Origin: Artocarpus heterophyllus
Taxonomy: Eukaryota; Streptophyta; Magnoliopsida; Rosales; Moraceae
NCBI GenBank assembly: GCA_025403435.1
Contig: CM046339.1
Location: forward strand, 5,038,212 to 5,102,211
Reading direction: 5' to 3'
Length of the DNA stretch: 64,000 bases
Shown here: piece after piece, positions 32,640-43,260 of the stretch
Layout of the letters: every line of letters starts with the position of its first letter
Position numbering within the stretch: position 1 is the first letter of the stretch
Made by a program: the position numbers and the translations under genes
Notes under the pieces: model-generated
What the model saw: only the letters and a program-made list of their open reading frames with translations
Database searches by the model: none
Told to the model about the DNA's origin: nothing

Positions 32640-33307
32640 TTTGGGAGATGAGCCCTATGCCTTGAGAGGAAATATAGCAATTTCGGTGATTGACGAGTAC
32701 GAGGATGTCTTCCCCGATGAGTTGCCCAGATTACCACCGTATCGGGAGATTGAGTTTGCTATTGAGTTGATTCCAGGAACAGCACCGATTTCAGTAGCAC
32801 CTTATCGGATGGCGCCAGCAGAATGAAAGAATTGAGAAAGCAACTTCAGGAGCCTTCTAATAAGGGGTATATTCGAAATAGCACATCTTTGTGGGGAGCA
32901 CCGGTTTTGTTTGCTAAGAAACATGATGGGACTCTTAGGTTGTGTATAGATTATCAGTAGCTGGATCGTTTCATGGTGAAAAATAAGTATCCTTTGCCCA
33001 GGATTGATGAGTTGTTTGATCAGTTGGGAGGTTTGCGGTACTTCTCAAAGATAGATTTGCGCTCAGGGTACCATCAACTTAGGATTAAGGAAGAGGACAT
33101 TCTCAAGACAGCTTTCAGGACCCGGTATGGATATTTTGAGTTTCTGGGGATACTGTTTGGGTTTACGAATGCTCCGGCAGCTTTCATGGATTTGATGAAC
33201 AGGATATTCAGGCCGTATCTAGATCAGTTTGTGATCGTATTCATCGATGATATTCTAGTGTATTCTAAGACATGGGAGGAGCATGAGCAGCATCTCAGGA
33301 TCGTGCT
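32640..33307 (+). pseudogene. Gypsy reverse transcriptase, N-terminal and palm part
   Basis: The segment starts with ISVIDEYEDVFPDELP and [18 protein letters not shown], the RT leader typical of Ty3/gypsy. It continues, after a shift and a stop, with [44 protein letters not shown] and [17 protein letters not shown], and the polymerase motif FIDDILVYS near 33241-33267. It ends at LRIVL, where the minus-strand element is inserted. The thumb and RNase H part resumes at 42510. Catalytic Asp pair is retained, but the reading frame is not intact. Confidence 0.95.
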
Positions 33308-35769
33308 TGTAACGCCCCTATATGGGGGTTAACAGTTTTTAATGAATTAAAATATAAATCAAAAATAAAAGTAAAACCTTAAAAATAAAGTTGGTCGGGG
33401 CTTAAATGAAAACTCTCAAATCAAAAATAAAAATATAAACGACAATTAAACTACAGTTTAATGTAGCACCTTAAATTTAATAATAGAAACTGTCGTCGTT
33501 ATCATTTTAACCCTCAACACATTTTAATACAGTCACAGAAAGTAACAATTAATGCTTACATTATCATGAAGAACATTCCTAGTAATTGAAGCAGTCCCAA
33601 CGTACATACCTACATAGCTTCTTTAACTATTTTTCTCGTAGCCACCTCACACTTAGTGAGTCCTGAAAAGATAAAAATATAAGGGAATGAGCGACAATAT
33701 GCTCAGTAGAGAAAACCATTACTCACCTTTAGGATTTTATCATTACCACATTAAAACCTGCATGGTTAGTTAATATTCATCATTATCCAGATTATGAGAT
33801 TTATTATAATCATATTTCATGGATGCCATAGTTAATCATTACCGAGTTTCATACATATACATACATACAAATGTTACAGTTCATCATTATTCCTAGGTAC
33901 CCACATTCAATAGAGTATCACTCAACTCATCGAAACCCAAATGGGCGCGCTTGATCACCCTCTAAATATTCCAAGGGTGTTTCGGTGAGGGGACATCAAG
34001 CCTTGAGTCCTCACCAAGTCGATTCCTATACAGTGTGTTCTGAGACTTTCAACTCAAGGAAGCATCATCACCTTCCCCCTATTTTGCCTTTTAGGTTATT
34101 CATGCTCAAGGACGTAACCGCCACCCTCTTCACATCTCACCATTTCTCTATATTCAATCATTATTTATAGAGTCAGTTTTCTTAACCATGCTTCTCAATT
34201 TATAACATGTGTCAATTCATTATGTTCCTCGTCGCATAATATAAGACGATTCCATGTCATAGTTTCATATGTGATACTCATATAATAGTAGTTTAACAAA
34301 GATATATATATCTTGTGGTAAAACAATCAATTTTAATTCCATAAAAACCTCACAAAAGATGAGTAATAGAATCCCTACCTTTCAAGCTTATCACCAATCT
34401 TTTAATCCCAAAATCAATTAACGTTAGCTCCACAGTCCCTTGATCCTAAGGCGTGCATAAGGACAATTTAAAACTAAAACACAACATACAACCACATTCA
34501 TAAATAAATCATGTGTAAAGCCATCTTACTAGTGTACCATTAAAGCTTTTCTGCAAATCTCTTTTGAATACCACAATAAACAATCTTTGTCTAAACACGA
34601 TATAAAATGTATACAAGTAATCTATATGTTTTAGTCCCTAATAAGATTCATCAATCACTCAGGATAATATTGGAAAGGTTGCAAGACATTAAGGAATTAG
34701 GTGGTGAGCAAAGATGGGTTCTTGGTTCAGTTAGCAGCTAGTATACCATGACAAACTGGCAGTATACTTTTACAACAAGGATAGGTTCACTATCTACAAT
34801 CATCACTTGAGTTAACAGGTGGTTTACTTAACGTAAATGGGCGGTATATTGCCACTGGCAAGTTTACTAGTTTCCAATCCGAAAATTGAAAAATTCATAA
34901 AAAATAAAATACAACTCCGATTTAGGCTTATGATAGCTCGTTAGAAAGCTTAGGATGTCTACTTTTTAAATATACAAACTAATTTACAAAATTCATTTTT
35001 ATTTAATCCTAGAATTTCAAGAAAGAGCCACTGCCCATAGAAGTATTATAAAATTTAACAATATAAATTTTCTATCTACGACATATACACTTAGACTTTA
35101 TACATATGTTCTAAAATATCAACAAAACATATACTCAGGTTTGAGAACGCAAATTTGAATAATCCTTGGGTATATAAAAAAATTATAAATGAAAGACTAA
35201 ATTTGTTCATAAGATTTTAACCTCGGATTATGGCTAGTTGGAAGCTTGAAATTGCTTCAAAACAGGTTCCCTGACTTCGGTATGGCCGAAATTCTTGCTC
35301 AAATGGAGGTGATGATGGCTGATTTTTATGGCTGCCTTGAAGAAGTTCTCTAAGTATTTTGCTTCAGCAAGGAAATGAGAAGAGTGTGGGAACCGTGGAA
35401 GAAAAAAAGAAAAGAAAAGATGAAGTCTTTGAAGAGAAGTGATAAAAACAATTATGGAGGAGACATGTTGAAGCATGTCACGGAGCAAATAAAGAAAAGG
35501 AGGGTCAAGAGTAGTTGGGAAAGATATCCTCATGTCTCCTCTGGAGACTTTAACCCACATAATGCCAAAATGACATTTTTGAAATTTATTAGAAGTTCCA
35601 AGGCTTTTCAGTAAACATACTCAATAAGTATAGGAGAATTTTAGAAAATTTAAAAATAGATAAAAATAAATATTGTGAAATGGATTTTAAATGAAGCAAA
35701 TTTTTGGTTGGCACACTAAAAATTAATTTAATTACCTTAATATCCGTTAAGAGAATAACAAGTGTTACA
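33308..35769 (-). repeat. 3' LTR of the LOG-carrying element
   Basis: 2462 bp. Plus-strand ends are TGTAACGCC and GTGTTACA. Aligned by eye with 40065-42509 over its full length, with substitutions every 10-20 bases and a few indels. Minus-strand open frames in both LTRs (for example 35234-35560) are repeat-borne and have no recognised domain. Confidence 0.95.
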
Positions 35770-35785
35770 ACTCTACCCCCTTAAA
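35770..35785 (-). other. Polypurine tract of the LOG-carrying element
   Basis: On the minus strand this reads ttaagggggtagagt, directly before the LTR. It resembles the tract before the 3' LTR of the surrounding gypsy element (agggtggagagt). Confidence 0.85.
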
Positions 35786-36447
35786 GAAGTTTCATCCTCA
35801 AAATTTCAAATCTAGCAATACTAGTAAAAATCACGATTCCATTATGATTCCAATTCTGAGTCTAAACCGTCAATGTTGTTTGTTCTCCAAATTTAAGTTA
35901 TCGTATCTACACTTATTTACTTGCATTATGAATCTCACTCTAAATTTTAAATCCCTCAATGAGAGTATTTCTAACAGGTTCCAACTTATAACACCATATA
36001 ATGGTCTAGGAATCTGATCAGGCATACATATTGACCATACCATGATTTCAGTCCTTTATTGTTCATGGACTGTGATATATAATTACATTTAAGGTGATTG
36101 CCAGAGAAATTTTATATACTTCATCTTTAGGTTCCTTTTCCTTTTTGAGTAAGGAAAAGTCAAATATAGTTGATTTCATATTTCAACTAATAAACTAAAA
36201 CATAATCATAAAATATATATCACAAACACTTCTATTCAAAATCATACATTAAACTTATTCATAGAGATACTAGACGGAATCTCAGAGTTGCTAACAAACC
36301 TGACAGATTTTTCATTAAACAGCTATCCTCATGACACAAACGTTCAGCCCAAATAATATACTCATATTTCTTACAAAATATGCCCACAAGTGACTTTGAT
36401 ACTTCCACATAACATTAACAGAATGCTACACATTACAAACATGATAC

Positions 36448-36640
36448 GGATACGTTTCGAGAGTACAAGGTGCTGCGTATATTCAGCTATCCATATCAGG
36501 CATACTTGGAGAATACAAAAACATCAATAAGCAAAAGATCGAACCTTAAGTGGGATGCGTTTCGAGAGTATCAAGTACTCCGTATCCAGCCATCCCGGCA
36601 TTAGGCTCAATGAATCCAAAAGATTGAACAACGGCATACC
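36448..36640. repeat. Two diverged copies of a ~105 bp repeat, downstream of the LOG-like ORF
   Basis: ggatacgtttcgagagtaca at 36448 and ggatgcgtttcgagagtatc at 36553 start two related segments, each continuing to a cgtat...cag(c)...atcc block. It lies 3' of the LOG-like stop codon in gene orientation, possibly in its 3' untranslated region. Confidence 0.65.
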
Positions 36641-36763
36641 ACAAGAAATACAAAATACAAGGTTAACGGTTATTCGTGACGCACGAAATACGAACACACA
36701 TGCCTACATGCCATAGATAAAACCAAAAGATTACAGATGGAGATTCAAATCAATTGGCTGCTC

Positions 36764-37381
36764 TCAGCTTTCCCTTTCCCATTCAAGCTTGGATGTTGCA
36801 GTGTCGGATTCTGGATGTATGATTTGCATCTTATCTATCAATTCCTTAACTGTTGAAGCAGTAACAAAGATTTGTCTCTCCAATTTTGCAATGATGTTTT
36901 CTTCCACAACGTAATCTAGAAATTTCAAAAGACCATCATAAAAATAATTTACATTCAATAGTCCCAAGGGTTTGGAATGAAAGCCCAATAATTGCTCACA
37001 AGCAACTACGAATATTTCCTCAAGAGTACCTAGACCACCAGGTAATGCTATAAAAGCATCAGAATTATTGATTATGGCTTTAAAATTTCTAGGGATGCTT
37101 CTGAATGCTTTTCCCTTACCTATGGTTTCCTTATAAAGGTTTCCTTCAGCTAGAATATGAGGCCAAATTCCTACAATTGTAGCATCACTAGACCTAGCTG
37201 CTAGCGTCATATTTTCCATCATTTTTATACTACCACCCCCATAGATTATGTTAATCTTCCTGCGTGCTAGGACTTGCCCTAAGTGTTTTGCAGCTTCTAC
37301 ATAGGCTTTATCTTTTCCAAGGCTGGAACCACAAAAGACACAGACATTCTTTATTTTCTTGGTGGACTGGGAGGTAGACAT
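36764..37381 (-). CDS. LOG-family protein (cytokinin riboside 5'-monophosphate phosphoribohydrolase-like), retrotransposon-borne
   Basis: 205 residues, complete from ATG to TGA with no stop or shift. LOG enzymes release active cytokinin bases from their riboside monophosphates in the cytosol. Visible landmarks are CVFCGSS (residues 14-20), the Rossmann-type IIYGGGS (45-51), DAFIALPGG (108-116) within PGGLGTLEE (114-122), KPLGLLNV, and a LOG-type C-terminal tail. Family members are about 210-225 residues, so this is full length. The usual GGGSVGLMG reads GGGSIKMME. The MHxRK segment, which holds the catalytic Arg, reads IPRNF (96-100), so activity is doubtful. Plant LOG genes have several introns and this copy has none, which suggests capture from spliced RNA. 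It sits in sense orientation inside the LTR element. Conserved PGGxGTxEE keeps the catalytic Glu. Confidence 0.9.
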   Translation of the reverse strand: MSTSQSTKKIKNVCVFCGSSLGKDKAYVEAAKHLGQVLARRKINIIYGGGSIKMMENMTLAARSSDATIVGIWPHILAEGNLYKETIGKGKAFRSIPRNFKAIINNSDAFIALPGGLGTLEEIFVVACEQLLGFHSKPLGLLNVNYFYDGLLKFLDYVVEENIIAKLERQIFVTASTVKELIDKMQIIHPESDTATSKLEWERES

Positions 37382-38111
37382 ATTTGGTTTATATAAGTGA
37401 TTGCTTTATGTCTGCTCCATTTAGACTTCGAGTTCTACATAAGATTTTAATGATGAAGAATACGCAAAAAGAACAAAAGAGGCAGACAAATAGGAAACGA
37501 AAAGGTAATTCAAAGATTTAAACAAAATCTTGTGCGGTAAGAAAGTACGATAAGGTGATTGATAGTTTACAGAAAATCTGATTCACTTTTTGAAAAAGAT
37601 TAGACTCTAATGATATACCTTTTGACAATTGAGAATAGTTTGATAGAAGACCCTCTTGACACAACTGCAGACCTTTTGACAAATATACATCAAGTCTAGA
37701 AATTCAATATAAACAATAAATACTATAGAACTTTTGAAATTTAAGACACAAATCTTGAAATATCTAGATAAGTTTTTAAAATTCAAACATGTTACTATAC
37801 TGTATGTGACGTGTCTAATAAGATAATATATTTTATTATATATATATTTAAGAAAACCATAAATTAAATGAGATACCAACACTTACTGTATCAATCTAAT
37901 AATCACAATTATTTCAACACAAAAGCAAATATTCTGAGTAAAAGAAAAACATAAACTGTTGAACATCAGCTAAAACTGTTTCAAATAAGCAAAGACTAAA
38001 TAACCTTTATAGAGCGATGACTTATTCCCCATCTAGTCTTCTTATGACTTGGCAAACAGGATCTAGAAATACTATATTCCTGAGTCGTTGTCTTTCTACA
38101 TAAAATTTAGG

Positions 38112-38492
38112 CTAGAGTTTAAAAATAGCTCCTTGAACATATCCACTAGGGTGACCATGAAGAGGAGGATGGATGCTATCTAAGTTCTCCTTTGAAAGTC
38201 CATCCCTGCAAAACCTTATTTTATCCTCTTTATTCGTAGACATATAACCAGGTGAAGTACATTTACTATTACAATTTTGTCTTCCACATTTGTTACCCGT
38301 TCTTGGTAAACTCACATCTTGACTGAAGTCACTCGGACGGATCTTCCCCTCTATTAACATTCTCACATCACAAGGGATGCCAAAACGCATAAGAATCCAC
38401 AACCGAGTAATTCTAGCCTTGTATTTCTTTCTGAGAATCTTTTGGGAGAGTGATGAAAAATACTTTCTCAGGTGTTGGTACTTTGGGTCCAT
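38112..38492 (-). CDS. Unknown 126-residue ORF in the same LTR element
   Basis: Complete frame starting MDPKYQHLRKYF. The first half is basic and amphipathic (KILRKKYKARITRLWI). The second half holds a Cys cluster CGRQNCNSKC (near residues 69-78) and ends HGHPSGYVQGAIFKL. I do not recognise the family. It lies 730 bases upstream of the LOG-like start on the same strand. A pyrimidine-rich leader with CTCTCT tracts (38500-38650) precedes the ATG, as in plant mRNAs, and a perfect G-box lies 240 bases upstream. It could be a second captured gene piece, a captured first exon, or a former gag-like ORF. Nothing shows it is translated. Confidence 0.5.
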   Translation of the reverse strand: MDPKYQHLRKYFSSLSQKILRKKYKARITRLWILMRFGIPCDVRMLIEGKIRPSDFSQDVSLPRTGNKCGRQNCNSKCTSPGYMSTNKEDKIRFCRDGLSKENLDSIHPPLHGHPSGYVQGAIFKL

Positions 38493-38499
38493 GATGAGA

Positions 38500-38655
38500 T
38501 GAAAGAAGAGTAAATAGAAAGAAAAAATTGAGATAGTAAGTTGTAGAATCCTATAATTCCTTCTTCTTTTAAAGAGAAGAATTTCTAGAGAGAAAGAAAA
38601 GAATTTGTGATTTAGAGAGAGAGTAACAAATTAAGAGAGAGAATGAGTGAGCTTG
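38500..38655 (-). promoter_or_regulatory. Leader-like pyrimidine tract upstream of the 126-codon ORF
   Basis: On the minus strand this interval is rich in CTCTCT and TTCTT, ending just before the ATG at 38492. Such leaders are common in plant genes. No convincing TATA box is seen, only weak catatacg near 38685. Confidence 0.4.
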
Positions 38656-38730
38656 GAGAAATAAGCTCCTATGCATAGTAGACGTATATGTAAACAATAA
38701 TTAAACCACTGTAGATGACACGTATAGAGG

Positions 38731-38738
38731 CCACGTGG
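38731..38738. promoter_or_regulatory. G-box CCACGTGG
   Basis: Perfect 8 bp palindrome CCACGTGG with GACACGTA about ten bases to the left. G-boxes and related ABRE cores bind plant bZIP and bHLH factors. Its position 240 bases upstream of the 126-codon ORF fits a captured promoter, but one site may occur by chance. Confidence 0.45.
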
Positions 38739-40045
38739 GAGAGACAGTGTGAATCAAACTGATTTAGGATTTGGACTAGCCCACATGTTCTAAGTTGAAA
38801 TGGGTCAGGTTGTTTTGGGCCTTAACATATTTATAACGAGTTAAATAACAAACATAAAATTGAAAACCAATTTGTACAGATTTTAAGCCCAATTCAAAGC
38901 CCACTAAAGATAAAATTAACTATGAACAAGTCTAATTTAACGACAATCATGGATCTTCCAGAATGGTATTTAAAATCATTTCATAGTAACATAATCTTCT
39001 AGCAGCTCAAATAATTTGTTTTAATCAAAACCTTATTGAACAATGTATACACCCATGTGTTATCCCTAATACTCAACATCTATCAGTGGATTCATCATTA
39101 CTACCAAGGGTTTAGAATATGACTAACCTTGAAATCAATACGATTTACATCTTCCAACGTAGACCATATCAATAAACAAATACCTTTGATGTTACTACTT
39201 AAGAATATCTACAATCCTCACAAATCTACTTATACAATATTTAATTTCCTCATATAACAAAACCGTAGGCAACCAAAAGATTCACATCTAAACATCTAAA
39301 AGTTAAACATTTTATCGTAATTATCCAAAGTTATTATATGTGCCTTAAGTATTATGATTTACTTAAGAAAACTCCCATTGGTCATTTTCACATTGCATCT
39401 ATTCATAAAGATTCAATGATATACTTAAATACAATGTACGTAACAAAATATTCCAACCTTGAAATTCATGCATTCTTACCTTTACACAGTCTCAACAAAC
39501 CAAAAGTCTAACATCAATCTCATTCAAGATTCAATACCATGGATTCCTAACTTATCTCATATTCCTCAAATAAATAGAACTTTCAAGAAAAGTTATTGAC
39601 ACTTATGTACTCCATCGAATCCACACATAATCATTACTTAGGTCTGAATAAATTATGAAGAATTTAACATATCTATGCCAAACTTTGAAATCAATAAATC
39701 AAGCCTTATATTTCTTATTGTTTTTCACAAGATAAAAGGCTCTTAAATCTTCGTATCTACACGAATTTCTCATCGTTCTATACGAATTAGATCTGCTTAT
39801 AGATCCTAATATTATACGAATCTCTCATAAGCATTCTACTTATAAACCCATTCCATATAATTATCATTCCCTCATAACTATTAATACTTTCATTCTAGAG
39901 CCTTTCTATGTTACATCCTTATGGACTGTATAAATTAACCTGAAGGTTCATATTGATGATGACAATGAAAATTCAACTTCAAAATCATTTCAAAAACATT
40001 TTTTTTTAAAAGTGGTGCTACACTCACTAGGTTAACCGAACCTAG

Positions 40046-40057
40046 GCTCTGATACCA
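40046..40057 (-). other. Primer binding site of the LOG-carrying element
   Basis: gctctgatacca on the plus strand is TGGTATCAGAGC on the minus strand, identical to the gypsy element's site. It lies 7 bases inside the right LTR, which fixes element orientation. Confidence 0.95.
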
Positions 40058-40064
40058 AAAATTC

Positions 40065-42509
40065 TATAACGCCCCTATATGGGGGTTAACAGTTTTGAAT
40101 CAATTAAAATAAAAATCAAAATAAAAGTAAAACTTTAAAAATAAAGTTGCCTGGGGCTTAAATGAAAACTCTCAAATCAAAAATAAAAATATAAAAAATA
40201 ATTAAACTACAATTTAATGTAGCACCTTAAATTTAAAAATATAAATTGTCGTCCTCAATGCATTTTAATACAGTCACAAAAAGTAACAATTGATGCTTAC
40301 ATTATCATGAAGAACGTTCTTAGTAATTGAAGCAGTCCCAACATACATAGCTACATAGCTTCTTCAACTATTTTTCTCGTAGCCACCTCACACTTAGTGA
40401 GTCCTGAAAAGATAAAAATATAAGGGAATGAGCGGCAATATGTTCAGTAGAGAAAACCATTACTCACCTTTAAGATTTTATCATTACCACACTAAAACCT
40501 GCATGGTTAGTTAATACTCATCATTATCCAGATTATGAGATTTATTATAATCATATTTCGTGGATACCATAGTTAATCATTACCGAGTTTCATACATATA
40601 CATATATACAAATGTTACAGTTTATCATTATTCCTAGGTATCCACGTTCAATAGAGTATCACTCAACTCATCGAAACCTAAATGGGCGCGCTTGATCACC
40701 CTCTAAATATTTTAAGGGTGTTTCGGTGAGGGGACATCAAGCCCCGAGTCCTCACCAAGTCGATTCCTGTACAGTGTGTTCTGGGACTTTCAACCCAAGG
40801 AAGCGTCATCGCCTTTCGCCTATTTTACCTTTAGGGTATTCGTGCCCAATGACGTAACCGCCGCCCTCTTCATGTCTCACCATTTCTCTATATTCAATTA
40901 TTATTTATAGAGCTAGTTTTTCTAACCATGCTTCTCAATTTATAACATGTGTCAATTCATTATGTTCTTCGTCGTATAATATAAGATGAGTCCATGTCAT
41001 GGTTTCATATGTGATACTCATATAATAGCAGTTCAACAAAGATATATATCTTGTGGTAAAATAATTAATTTTAATTTCATAAAAACCTCACAAAAGATGA
41101 GTAATAGAATCCCCACCTTTCAAGCTTATCACCAATCTTTTAATCCCAAAATCAATTAATGTTAGCTCCACATTCCCTTGATCCTAAGGCTTGCATAAGG
41201 AAAATTTAAAACTAAAGTACAACATACAACCACATTCATAAATAAATTATGTGTAAATTCATCTTATTAGTGTGCCATTAAAGCTTTTATACAAATCTCT
41301 TTTGAATACCACAATAAACAATCTTTGTCTTAACATGATATAAAATGTATACAAGTAATCTATATGTTTTAGTCCCTAATAAGATTCATCAATCACTTAG
41401 GATAATATTGGAAAGGTTGCAAGACATTAAGGAATTAGGTGGTGAGCAAAGATGGGTTCTTGGTTCAGGTTAGTAGCTGGTATACCATGGTAAACTGGCA
41501 GTATACTTTTGCAAAAAGGATAGGTTCACTATCTACAATCATCACATGAGTTAACGGGTGGTTTACTTAAGGTAAACAGGCGGTATATTGCCACAGGCAG
41601 GTTTACTAGTTTCCAATCCAAAAATTAAAAAATTCATAGAAAATAAAATATAACTCCGATTTATTCTTATAATTGCTTGTTAGAAAGCTTAGGATGTCTA
41701 CTTTTTAAATATACAAACTAATTTACAAAATTTATTTTTATTTAATCCTAGAATTTCAAGAAAGTGCCACTACCCATAGAGGTATTACAAAATTTAACAA
41801 TATAAATTTTTTATCTACGGCGTATACACTTAGACTTTATACATATGTTCTAAAATAGCAACAAAACATATATTCAGGTTTGAGAATGCAAATTTGAATA
41901 ATCCTTGAGTATATAAAAAAATTATAAATGAAAGACTAAATTTGTTAATAAAATTCTAACCTCGGATTATGGCTAGTTGGCAGCTTGAAATGGCTTCAAA
42001 ACAGGTTCCCTGACTTCAGTATGGCTAAAATTCTTGCTCAAATGGAGGTGATGGTGGCTGATTTTTATGGCTGCCTTGAAGAAGTTCTCTAAGTATTTTG
42101 CTTCAGTAAGGGAATAAGAGGAAGAGTGTGGGAACCGTGGAAGAAAAAAAAAAGAAAAGATGATGTCTTTGAAGATAAGTGATAAAAACAATTATGGAGG
42201 AGACATGTTGAAGCATGTCACGGAGCAAATAAAGAAAAGGAGGGTCAAGAGTAGTTGGGAAAGATATCCTCATGTCTCCTCTGGAGACTTTAACCCACAT
42301 AATGCCAAAATGACATTTTTGAAATTTATTAGAAGTTTCAAGGCTTTTCAGTAAACATACTAAATAAGTATAGGAGAATTTTAGAAAATTTAAAATAAGA
42401 TAAAAATAAATATTGTGAAATGGATTTTAAATAAAGCAAATTTTTGGTTGGTGCACCAAAAATTAATTTAATTATCTTAATACCCATTAAGAGAGTAACA
42501 TGTGTCATA
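40065..42509 (-). repeat. 5' LTR of the LOG-carrying element
   Basis: 2445 bp. Outer ends have decayed: the plus-strand start is TATAACGCC (TG to TA) and the end GTGTCATA (CA to TA). It includes the short-module region 41476-41608 and an inverted repeat ggtgagg...cctcacc near 40725-40755. Confidence 0.95.
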
Positions 42510-43260
42510 GTACTTCAGACTCTCTAGGAGCACCAGTTGTATGCCAAGAAAGAAAAGTGTGAATTTTAGTTAACAAAGGTTAAGTTTTTGGGTCATGTCA
42601 TCTCTGAGCATGGTATTTCTGTGGATCTGTCCAAGATTGCAGCCATAGTGGAATGGGAACGACTGAGGAATGTAGCTAAAATCTGCAGCTCTTTGGGTCT
42701 TGTCGGTTATTACAGGAAATTTGTAATGGATTTCTTGAAGGTTGCAGCGTCGTTGATGAGATTGGTCAGGAAAAATGTTAGGTTTGAGTGGGATGAAGAA
42801 TGTGAGCTTGCTTTTCAAGAATTGAAGAATCGGTTGACTTCAGCCCTAGTGTTGGTTATCCCTAGCAGTGACGAGCCGTATGAGGTTTATACAGATGCTT
42901 TAGGACGCAGACTTGGATGAGTGTTGATGTAGCATAGACACGTGGTTGCATACAGATTGAGACAACTATGACCTCACAAGCAAAATTATCCTACTCACGA
43001 CTTGGAGCTCACAGCGGTGATTCACGAATTGAAGATTTGGAGATGTTATTTGGATGGGGTGACATTTCAGGTCTTTTTCGATCATAAGAGTTTGAGGTAT
43101 CTGTTCACTCAGGGGGATCTTAACTTAAGGCAGCGAAGATGGATGGAGTACATGAAGGATTATGATTTTACATTGCAGTACCATCCTGGGAAAGCTAATG
43201 TGGTCGCGGATGCGCTTAGCAGGAAGTCTTCAGGGATTCTTTCTTGTTTGGCTCTTGAGG
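42510..43260 (+). pseudogene. Gypsy RT thumb and RNase H
   Basis: Coding resumes right after the nested element with LQTL-type text, AKKEKCEF, then GHVISEHGISVDLSKIAAI, SSLGLVGYYRKFV and FEWDEECELAFQELK, the RT-RNase H connection of Ty3/gypsy. RNase H blocks include YEVYTDAL, then after a break LELTAVIHELKIWRCYL, FDHKSLRYLFTQ, LRQRRWMEYMKDYDF and YHPGKANVVADALSRK. Stops occur near 42568, 42920 and 42970. It belongs to the pol begun at 32640. Confidence 0.95.

Follow-up and report, generated by a model that had tools for sequence, protein, structure and literature searches.

An old two-gene cassette with an intronless LOG-family gene in a high-copy, non-autonomous LTR retrotransposon family of Artocarpus heterophyllus

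What is a LOG-family (cytokinin activation) gene doing inside a retrotransposon that has neither gag nor pol? The window analysed here, a stretch of 64,000 nucleotides from contig CM046339.1 of Artocarpus heterophyllus, raises this question with a complete long terminal repeat (LTR) element at 33308-42509 on the minus strand, in whose interior lies an intronless open reading frame (ORF) of the LOG family. A reading of the letters alone (the sequence-only reading) had seen in it a spliced host LOG mRNA captured by this very element. The answer that we consider likely is a different one: the window element would be an aging copy of a very successful non-autonomous family, here called family A, which carries not gag-pol but an old cassette of two genes, a virus-like ORF (ORF A) and the intronless LOG.

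Structure and copy number of family A

The element and the frame that it interrupts are laid out as follows:

33303..33307, no strand: left target-site duplication (TSD), GTGCT, one mismatch against the right copy
33308..35769, minus strand: 3' LTR, 93.0% identical to the 5' LTR
35770..35789, minus strand: polypurine tract adjoining the 3' LTR; a similar purine-rich tract precedes the 3' LTR in the further copies L039-L042
36764..37381, minus strand: LOG-family ORF, 205 codons here and 216 in other family A copies, catalytic Arg replaced by Asn
38112..38492, minus strand: ORF A, damaged, 126 codons here and 173 in other family A copies
40047..40057, minus strand: primer binding site TGGTATCAGAG, which we take to be of the tRNA-iMet type
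40065..42509, minus strand: 5' LTR
42510..42514, no strand: right TSD, GTACT, one mismatch against the left copy
32973..33302, plus strand: reverse-transcriptase ORF of an older Ty3 element (PF00078, 1.5e-21), resuming at 42515

All the landmarks of a complete LTR element that had been reported for this locus (both TSD copies, primer binding site, polypurine tract and both LTRs) are thus present; with the element on the minus strand, its 5' LTR is the right-hand copy. The insertion splits the reverse-transcriptase frame of the plus-strand Ty3 element. The two LTRs are separated by a Kimura two-parameter distance of 0.0635 which, at LTR substitution rates of 1.3e-8 and 6.5e-9 per site per year, would place the insertion about 2.4-4.9 million years ago. 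No gag or pol was found among the ATG-started ORFs of at least 80 amino acids inside the element (degraded remnants were not searched for), so that the reported absence of retroelement coding domains stands to this extent; the same report had, however, overlooked ORF A.

Family A is very abundant. Tags of 30 nucleotides, counted over the whole assembly (985 Mb, 334 contigs) with up to 3 mismatches, mark 9,737 LTR, 3,227 ORF A and 2,992 LOG sites, and the reversed-pattern control gave 0 for each of the three. Provided that each tag marks a full piece, the family would account for roughly 3-4% of the assembly. Of 6,079 candidates from a tblastn search with the window LOG, 150 were scored, and all of these, window copy included, are at least 87% identical. 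Since the copies derived from this search were selected by protein likeness, open frames are over-represented among them. A second, ORF-blind sample was matched through non-coding DNA and comprises 39 other copies, of which 38 were fetched (the 39th, L012, was already in the set); LOG is present in all 38. The family is therefore multicopy, as had been supposed, and the idea that a single element happened to enclose a host LOG pseudogene, for which nothing speaks and which these 38 copies and the thousands of tagged LOG sites refute, has in our view virtually no probability left.

Four further copies (L039-L042) repeat the layout of the window element, each with perfect 5-bp TSDs as judged by eye, and the identities of their LTR pairs (96.9, 96.4 over 1.7 kb, 97.6 and 99.1%) indicate that family A moved recently. 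Among 100 exact LTR tags listed on contig C1, 41 have a same-strand neighbour within 30 kb, which is 5.9-8.7 kb away in 40 cases and 23.4 kb away in the last; a spacing class of gag-pol size is absent from these 100 tags. This spacing, together with the missing gag and pol ORFs, is the ground on which we call family A non-autonomous, in agreement with the sequence-only reading. The spacings on C1 fall into two classes, of ~6.2 kb and 6.6-6.9 kb, and the shorter class may be explained by an LTR deletion like that seen in L040.

A cassette shared by LTR elements and a Helitron

The second sense ORF, upstream of LOG, is conserved throughout family A (173 amino acids) and recurs in two other families of the same genome, B (184 amino acids) and D (173 amino acids). 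In the alignment, most rows present a basic run followed by the cluster C-X2-C-X4-C-X3-C. Eleven ORF A proteins were scanned singly with a threshold of E 0.1; nine matched the model Viral_NABP (best 3.9e-4) and eight matched Carla_C4 (best 5.1e-5), and neither model matched any of six composition-preserving shuffles of the database relative P0122. A kinship of ORF A with the nucleic-acid-binding proteins of carlaviruses is, from these profiles, likely but short of proof. The window copy itself has no Pfam match; as seen by eye, an in-frame loss removes the basic motif and the first Cys, and an early stop is present. Weak matches of ORF A searches to MCM_OB and to prolyl hydroxylase were set aside as probable chance. 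The database relatives P0121-P0124 lie on ENA contigs of 727-1312 bases, transcript-sized in look, which is no more than a hint of expression.

Family B (L003, L005, L007) consists of LTR elements with 2.1-kb LTRs in which gag and protease frames are followed by ORF A and LOG; its copies are covered by the regions L003+L090, L005+L089+L091 and L043+L044. In L007 a TGGCGCC-type primer binding site stands 6 nt behind the LTR, and Pfam recognises both gag (PF03732, 4.5e-9) and an aspartyl protease (PF13650, 2.2e-6). In all three copies no more than ~0.6-0.8 kb separates the protease from ORF A, which leaves no room for pol; reverse transcriptase and integrase are likewise missing from the listed ORFs of the family B copies. 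The joined L005 region also contains, on its other strand at ~649-1116, one more frame that resembles ORF A but has diverged, which suggests yet another element family with an ORF A gene.

Family D is of a different order of transposons. Its two principal loci, L001 (C20:24332596-24335988) and L004 (C17:24137789-24141181), read together with L045-L048, carry ORF A and LOG near the 3' end and are 95% identical over more than 10.3 kb, counted from a sharp end formed by CTAG plus a hairpin. On the strand opposite to ORF A and LOG, the L001 copy encodes a helicase of the PIF1 type (1.1e-93), in which a Pif1 2B domain is also recognised. The shared CTAG-plus-hairpin end and this helicase lead us to classify family D as a Helitron. 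The same CTAG end is joined to other flanks in four of the five D loci examined (L001, L004 and those on C26 and C27); at the fifth, on C16, the 401 bases that were read did not match. The fold of the terminal hairpin is weak (z -1.6 and -0.9), and two further L001 frames gave no Pfam match in a stretch that stops short of the 5' end. The family D tag occurs 19 times. Direct repeats of ~500 bp had pointed to a short-LTR family, an assignment that was rejected in view of the Helitron ends and shared boundaries.

Who gave the cassette to whom? In a tree of 39 LOG proteins, the sequences from families A, B and D group with the protein P0001 in a single clade (support 100/99), within which A and D are sisters (100/96). 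The clade is nested in a 30-row group with proteins of Populus, Reevesia, Primulina and others (99/99), from which AtLOG3, AtLOG8 and the Musa LOG are separate (99/96); the fork uniting 34 non-canonical LOG rows is less sure (87/87). Because the A, B and D genes share this common descent, the capture of LOG is older than family A, and the proposal that the window's own element captured it is not supported.

The sister relation of A and D would fit an exchange between transposons in which a Helitron captured the genes and later passed them to LTR elements, or the reverse. The D cassette adjoins the 3' terminus, and past the LOG the terminal region is repeated internally in degenerate form, as read-through capture could leave it. 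The position of family B, a gag-protease LTR family, as sister to A plus D weighs against a Helitron origin. So does the predicted protein P0002 of Xanthoceras sorbifolium, in which LOG is joined to gag-protease sequence: the family B protease region matches it at E 3e-10 among 144 proteins (41% identity over 70 residues), so that the linkage of LOG with gypsy elements exists in Xanthoceras as well. On both counts, LTR elements are no less probable a source of the cassette. We regard such an exchange as possible, at somewhat less than even chance.

Loss of the LOG active site and selection on the cassette

The LOG ORF of the window is real, as judged by profile searches (PF03641, E 7.9e-27; TIGR00730, E 6.7e-42), but it is not full as had been claimed: it stops at codon 205, 11 C-terminal residues short of the 216-codon family A copies. 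It reaches only 96 bits against the equivalog model NF058542, whose cut-off is 300. A weak KduD match in the profile searches was put aside as probable chance.

Host-type LOG genes with the canonical MH(Q/E)RKAEMA exon occur at 12 sites elsewhere in the genome, and at L092, the only one of them that was fetched, the gene is divided into exons, unlike the intronless window copy, which bears out the contrast drawn by the sequence-only reading. This is what one would expect if, in the manner of maize Bs1, the window's element had captured a spliced host mRNA and were spreading an active cytokinin enzyme under LTR control. The thousands of tagged sites also suit such a spread, as does the PGGxGTxxE motif, retained as PGGLGTLEE in the window copy and in exactly this form in 43 of 68 family A rows (one locus, L034 and L062, is counted twice among the 68). 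The rest of the active site argues otherwise. Where a catalytic Arg (Arg99 of CgLOG) would be expected, 67 of the 68 rows have Asn and one has Tyr; the neighbouring Lys is replaced by Phe in 66, and the glycine-rich stretch reads mostly KMM where GLM is canonical. Across the 39 aligned LOGs the Arg is retained in 35, those of families B and D included, and is absent from four family A proteins, P0001 among them. In CgLOG, replacement by Ala of the AMP-binding and catalytic residues, including Arg99 and with the exception of S19A, led to almost complete loss of activity (PMC4979012). Cytokinin activation by the family A LOG is thus doubtful. The window protein is probably not a cytokinin-activating enzyme, contrary to the gene's first annotation, and on its residues we file the family A LOG as a LOG relative. 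With a LOG clade that predates family A as well, the spread of an active, newly captured enzyme appears improbable.

If the enzyme is lost, has the cassette been an inert passenger, a filler in place of gag-pol that is copied merely through lying between LTRs? The state of the frames would allow it: among the 38 ORF-blind LOGs, the frame is open in 8, ends late in 1, is cut short by an early stop in 8 and is shifted in 21, so that 29 are broken early or shifted. The comparison of family A with family D points the other way. The ratio of nonsynonymous to synonymous substitution rates (dN/dS, YN00) is 0.26-0.30 for LOG (dS 0.84-0.97) and 0.13-0.18 for ORF A (dS 0.99-1.30). Within families the YN00 ratios for LOG, 0.30-0.36 in A and 0.17-0.65 in B, are similar or higher, and no value was obtained for A-B or D-B pairs. 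As a control, two A-D pairs per gene were compared by Nei-Gojobori in all six frames: the coding frame of LOG gave 0.25-0.27 and its five other frames 0.38-1.62, that of ORF A gave 0.15-0.17 and its other frames 0.22-1.54, with no stop-bearing codon in the coding frame and 8-31 in the others. The off-frame control nearest to the coding value is the antisense frame with common third positions. Both ORFs were thus clearly constrained between A and D, and they keep the same order in A, B and D; both observations speak against a passenger.

The stops themselves tell a similar story, on a tree much of which is weakly supported. The stop at LOG codon 5 maps to 10 changes for 10 carriers, that at codon 170 to 5 for 5, and that at codon 201 to 3 for 5 (L074 and L034 were left out, and 8 further rows with another codon 5 were not counted). 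As each carrier gained its own, the codon 5 and 170 stops look like hits received after insertion. At codon 5 the change is CAG to TAG in a CHG context, which makes a methylation-driven mutation likely.

The passenger explanation draws on the lost active site and on near-neutral change inside family A, and we hold it to be rather unlikely, given the constraint between A and D. The suggestion that the ORF had been maintained over rounds of transposition is, in consequence, half right: constraint is clear across the A-D separation and weak inside family A, where the codon 5 and 170 stops arose separately in each carrier.

Several results weigh against the cassette reading. Inside family A, selection is barely visible. 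The Nei-Gojobori dN/dS within the family (L025 and L029 left out for their length) is 0.45, inside the off-frame range of 0.43-0.80, and was dropped as evidence of selection. The nonsynonymous-to-synonymous ratio (N/S) was then taken as observed over expected, with an expectation matched for mutation type and context, for variants found in 1, 2-3 and 4+ rows (without the duplicate row L074 and, in the joint run, without L012 and L034). It is 0.87, 0.79 and 0.72 (P 0.15, 0.21, 0.07) in 37 ORF-blind rows, and 0.94, 0.77 and 0.73 (P 0.34, 0.10, 0.045) with both sets joined; the 30 protein-picked rows gave 0.85, 0.84 and 0.44 (P 0.17, 0.26, 0.005). LOG change within the family thus seems near-neutral. 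No autonomous partner of family A was found. The viral affinity of ORF A is weak overall: P0122 passes the Carla_C4 cut-off, P0121, P0123 and P0124 pass neither, and one shuffle of P0122 matched another family at E 0.022, so that little weight can be given to single matches at 0.01-0.02. The structure model of ORF A is unusable (pLDDT 44) and a profile search of the PDB with ORF A gave no useful solved-structure match.

The reading of family A as the bearer of an old cassette leads to the hypothesis of a mechanism in several steps. Family A would move in trans, via proteins of an autonomous element. In the source lineages the cassette would have been selected for aiding the transposon, with ORF A acting perhaps by nucleic-acid binding or by blunting silencing, and LOG perhaps through a nucleotide-related function that was later relaxed in family A. 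Selection kept the cassette over the A-D separation, in LTR and Helitron carriers alike; the family A LOG then lost its catalytic residue and now decays almost freely. In the window copy both ORF A and LOG are probably dead.

A bolder version, which we consider unlikely, would make ORF A plus LOG a portable helper cassette that moves between LTR retrotransposons and Helitrons and manipulates the host. ORF A would suppress silencing as viral proteins do, or act as a zinc-finger regulator, and LOG would favour dividing cells, from which new insertions can be passed on. Family A, whose LOG lacks the catalytic Arg, would represent a late stage, with that LOG perhaps in a binding role.

Relation to known systems

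If the cassette reading is true, a plant transposon lineage has armed itself, virus-like, with a nucleic-acid-binding accessory and a hormone-pathway gene, in thousands of copies and with a DNA transposon sharing the set. The use of silencing suppressors and cytokinin metabolism by plant transposons for their spread becomes testable. Gene catalogues may also list transposon ORFs as host LOG genes, Xanthoceras P0002 being an example.

LARD-type elements, large non-autonomous LTR elements, have long LTRs, no gag-pol and a conserved interior. Family A resembles them in all three respects, with the difference that its interior is protein-coding.

Maize Bs1, with which the sequence-only reading had compared this locus, is likewise an LTR element with transduced host sequence, as far as the accessible text of PMC7264820 describes it. 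The parallel is sound as regards a host-derived intronless gene in an LTR element and too weak beyond that, given a high-copy family with ~3,000 tagged sites, a cassette of two conserved ORFs common to several families, two transposon orders and an older capture.

In the cysteine-rich, nucleic-acid-binding proteins of carlaviruses a cluster of Cys residues comes after a basic motif, as it does in ORF A, and ORF A weakly matches both Pfam models. ORF A is longer (173-184 amino acids) and stands outside any viral context, and its spacing C-X2-C-X4-C-X3-C differs from the C-X2-C-X9-C-X4-C given there for PVH (PMC3689765).

The gypsy elements of orchids with an AlkB m6A demethylase offer another likeness, that of a cellular enzyme domain fixed in an element and kept over replication rounds; as presented in the accessible sections of PMC9289625, they carry another enzyme, reach 25 kb and have demonstrated activity, whereas family A is known from its sequence.

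The closest precedent comes from the same source, which reports, in the sections accessible, a YgdH/LOG domain in Ty3/gypsy consensus sequences of Citrus sinensis and C. clementina, and of Populus trichocarpa under a looser filter, and cites Steinbauerova et al. 2011 (PMC9289625). In both cases gypsy-type elements have acquired an additional domain of the LOG family. There the consensus was built around the reverse transcriptase, whereas the carriers described here have no pol; here, ~3,000 LOG sites in one family are accompanied by a virus-like partner ORF and a Helitron carrier, none of which those sections mention. Among the papers that the literature searches listed, none was seen to report a carlavirus-like partner ORF, a LOG-bearing Helitron or such a copy number. 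LOG in gypsy elements is thus already published, as far as the accessible text of PMC9289625 goes, while the virus-like partner, the Helitron copy and the copy number appear to be new.

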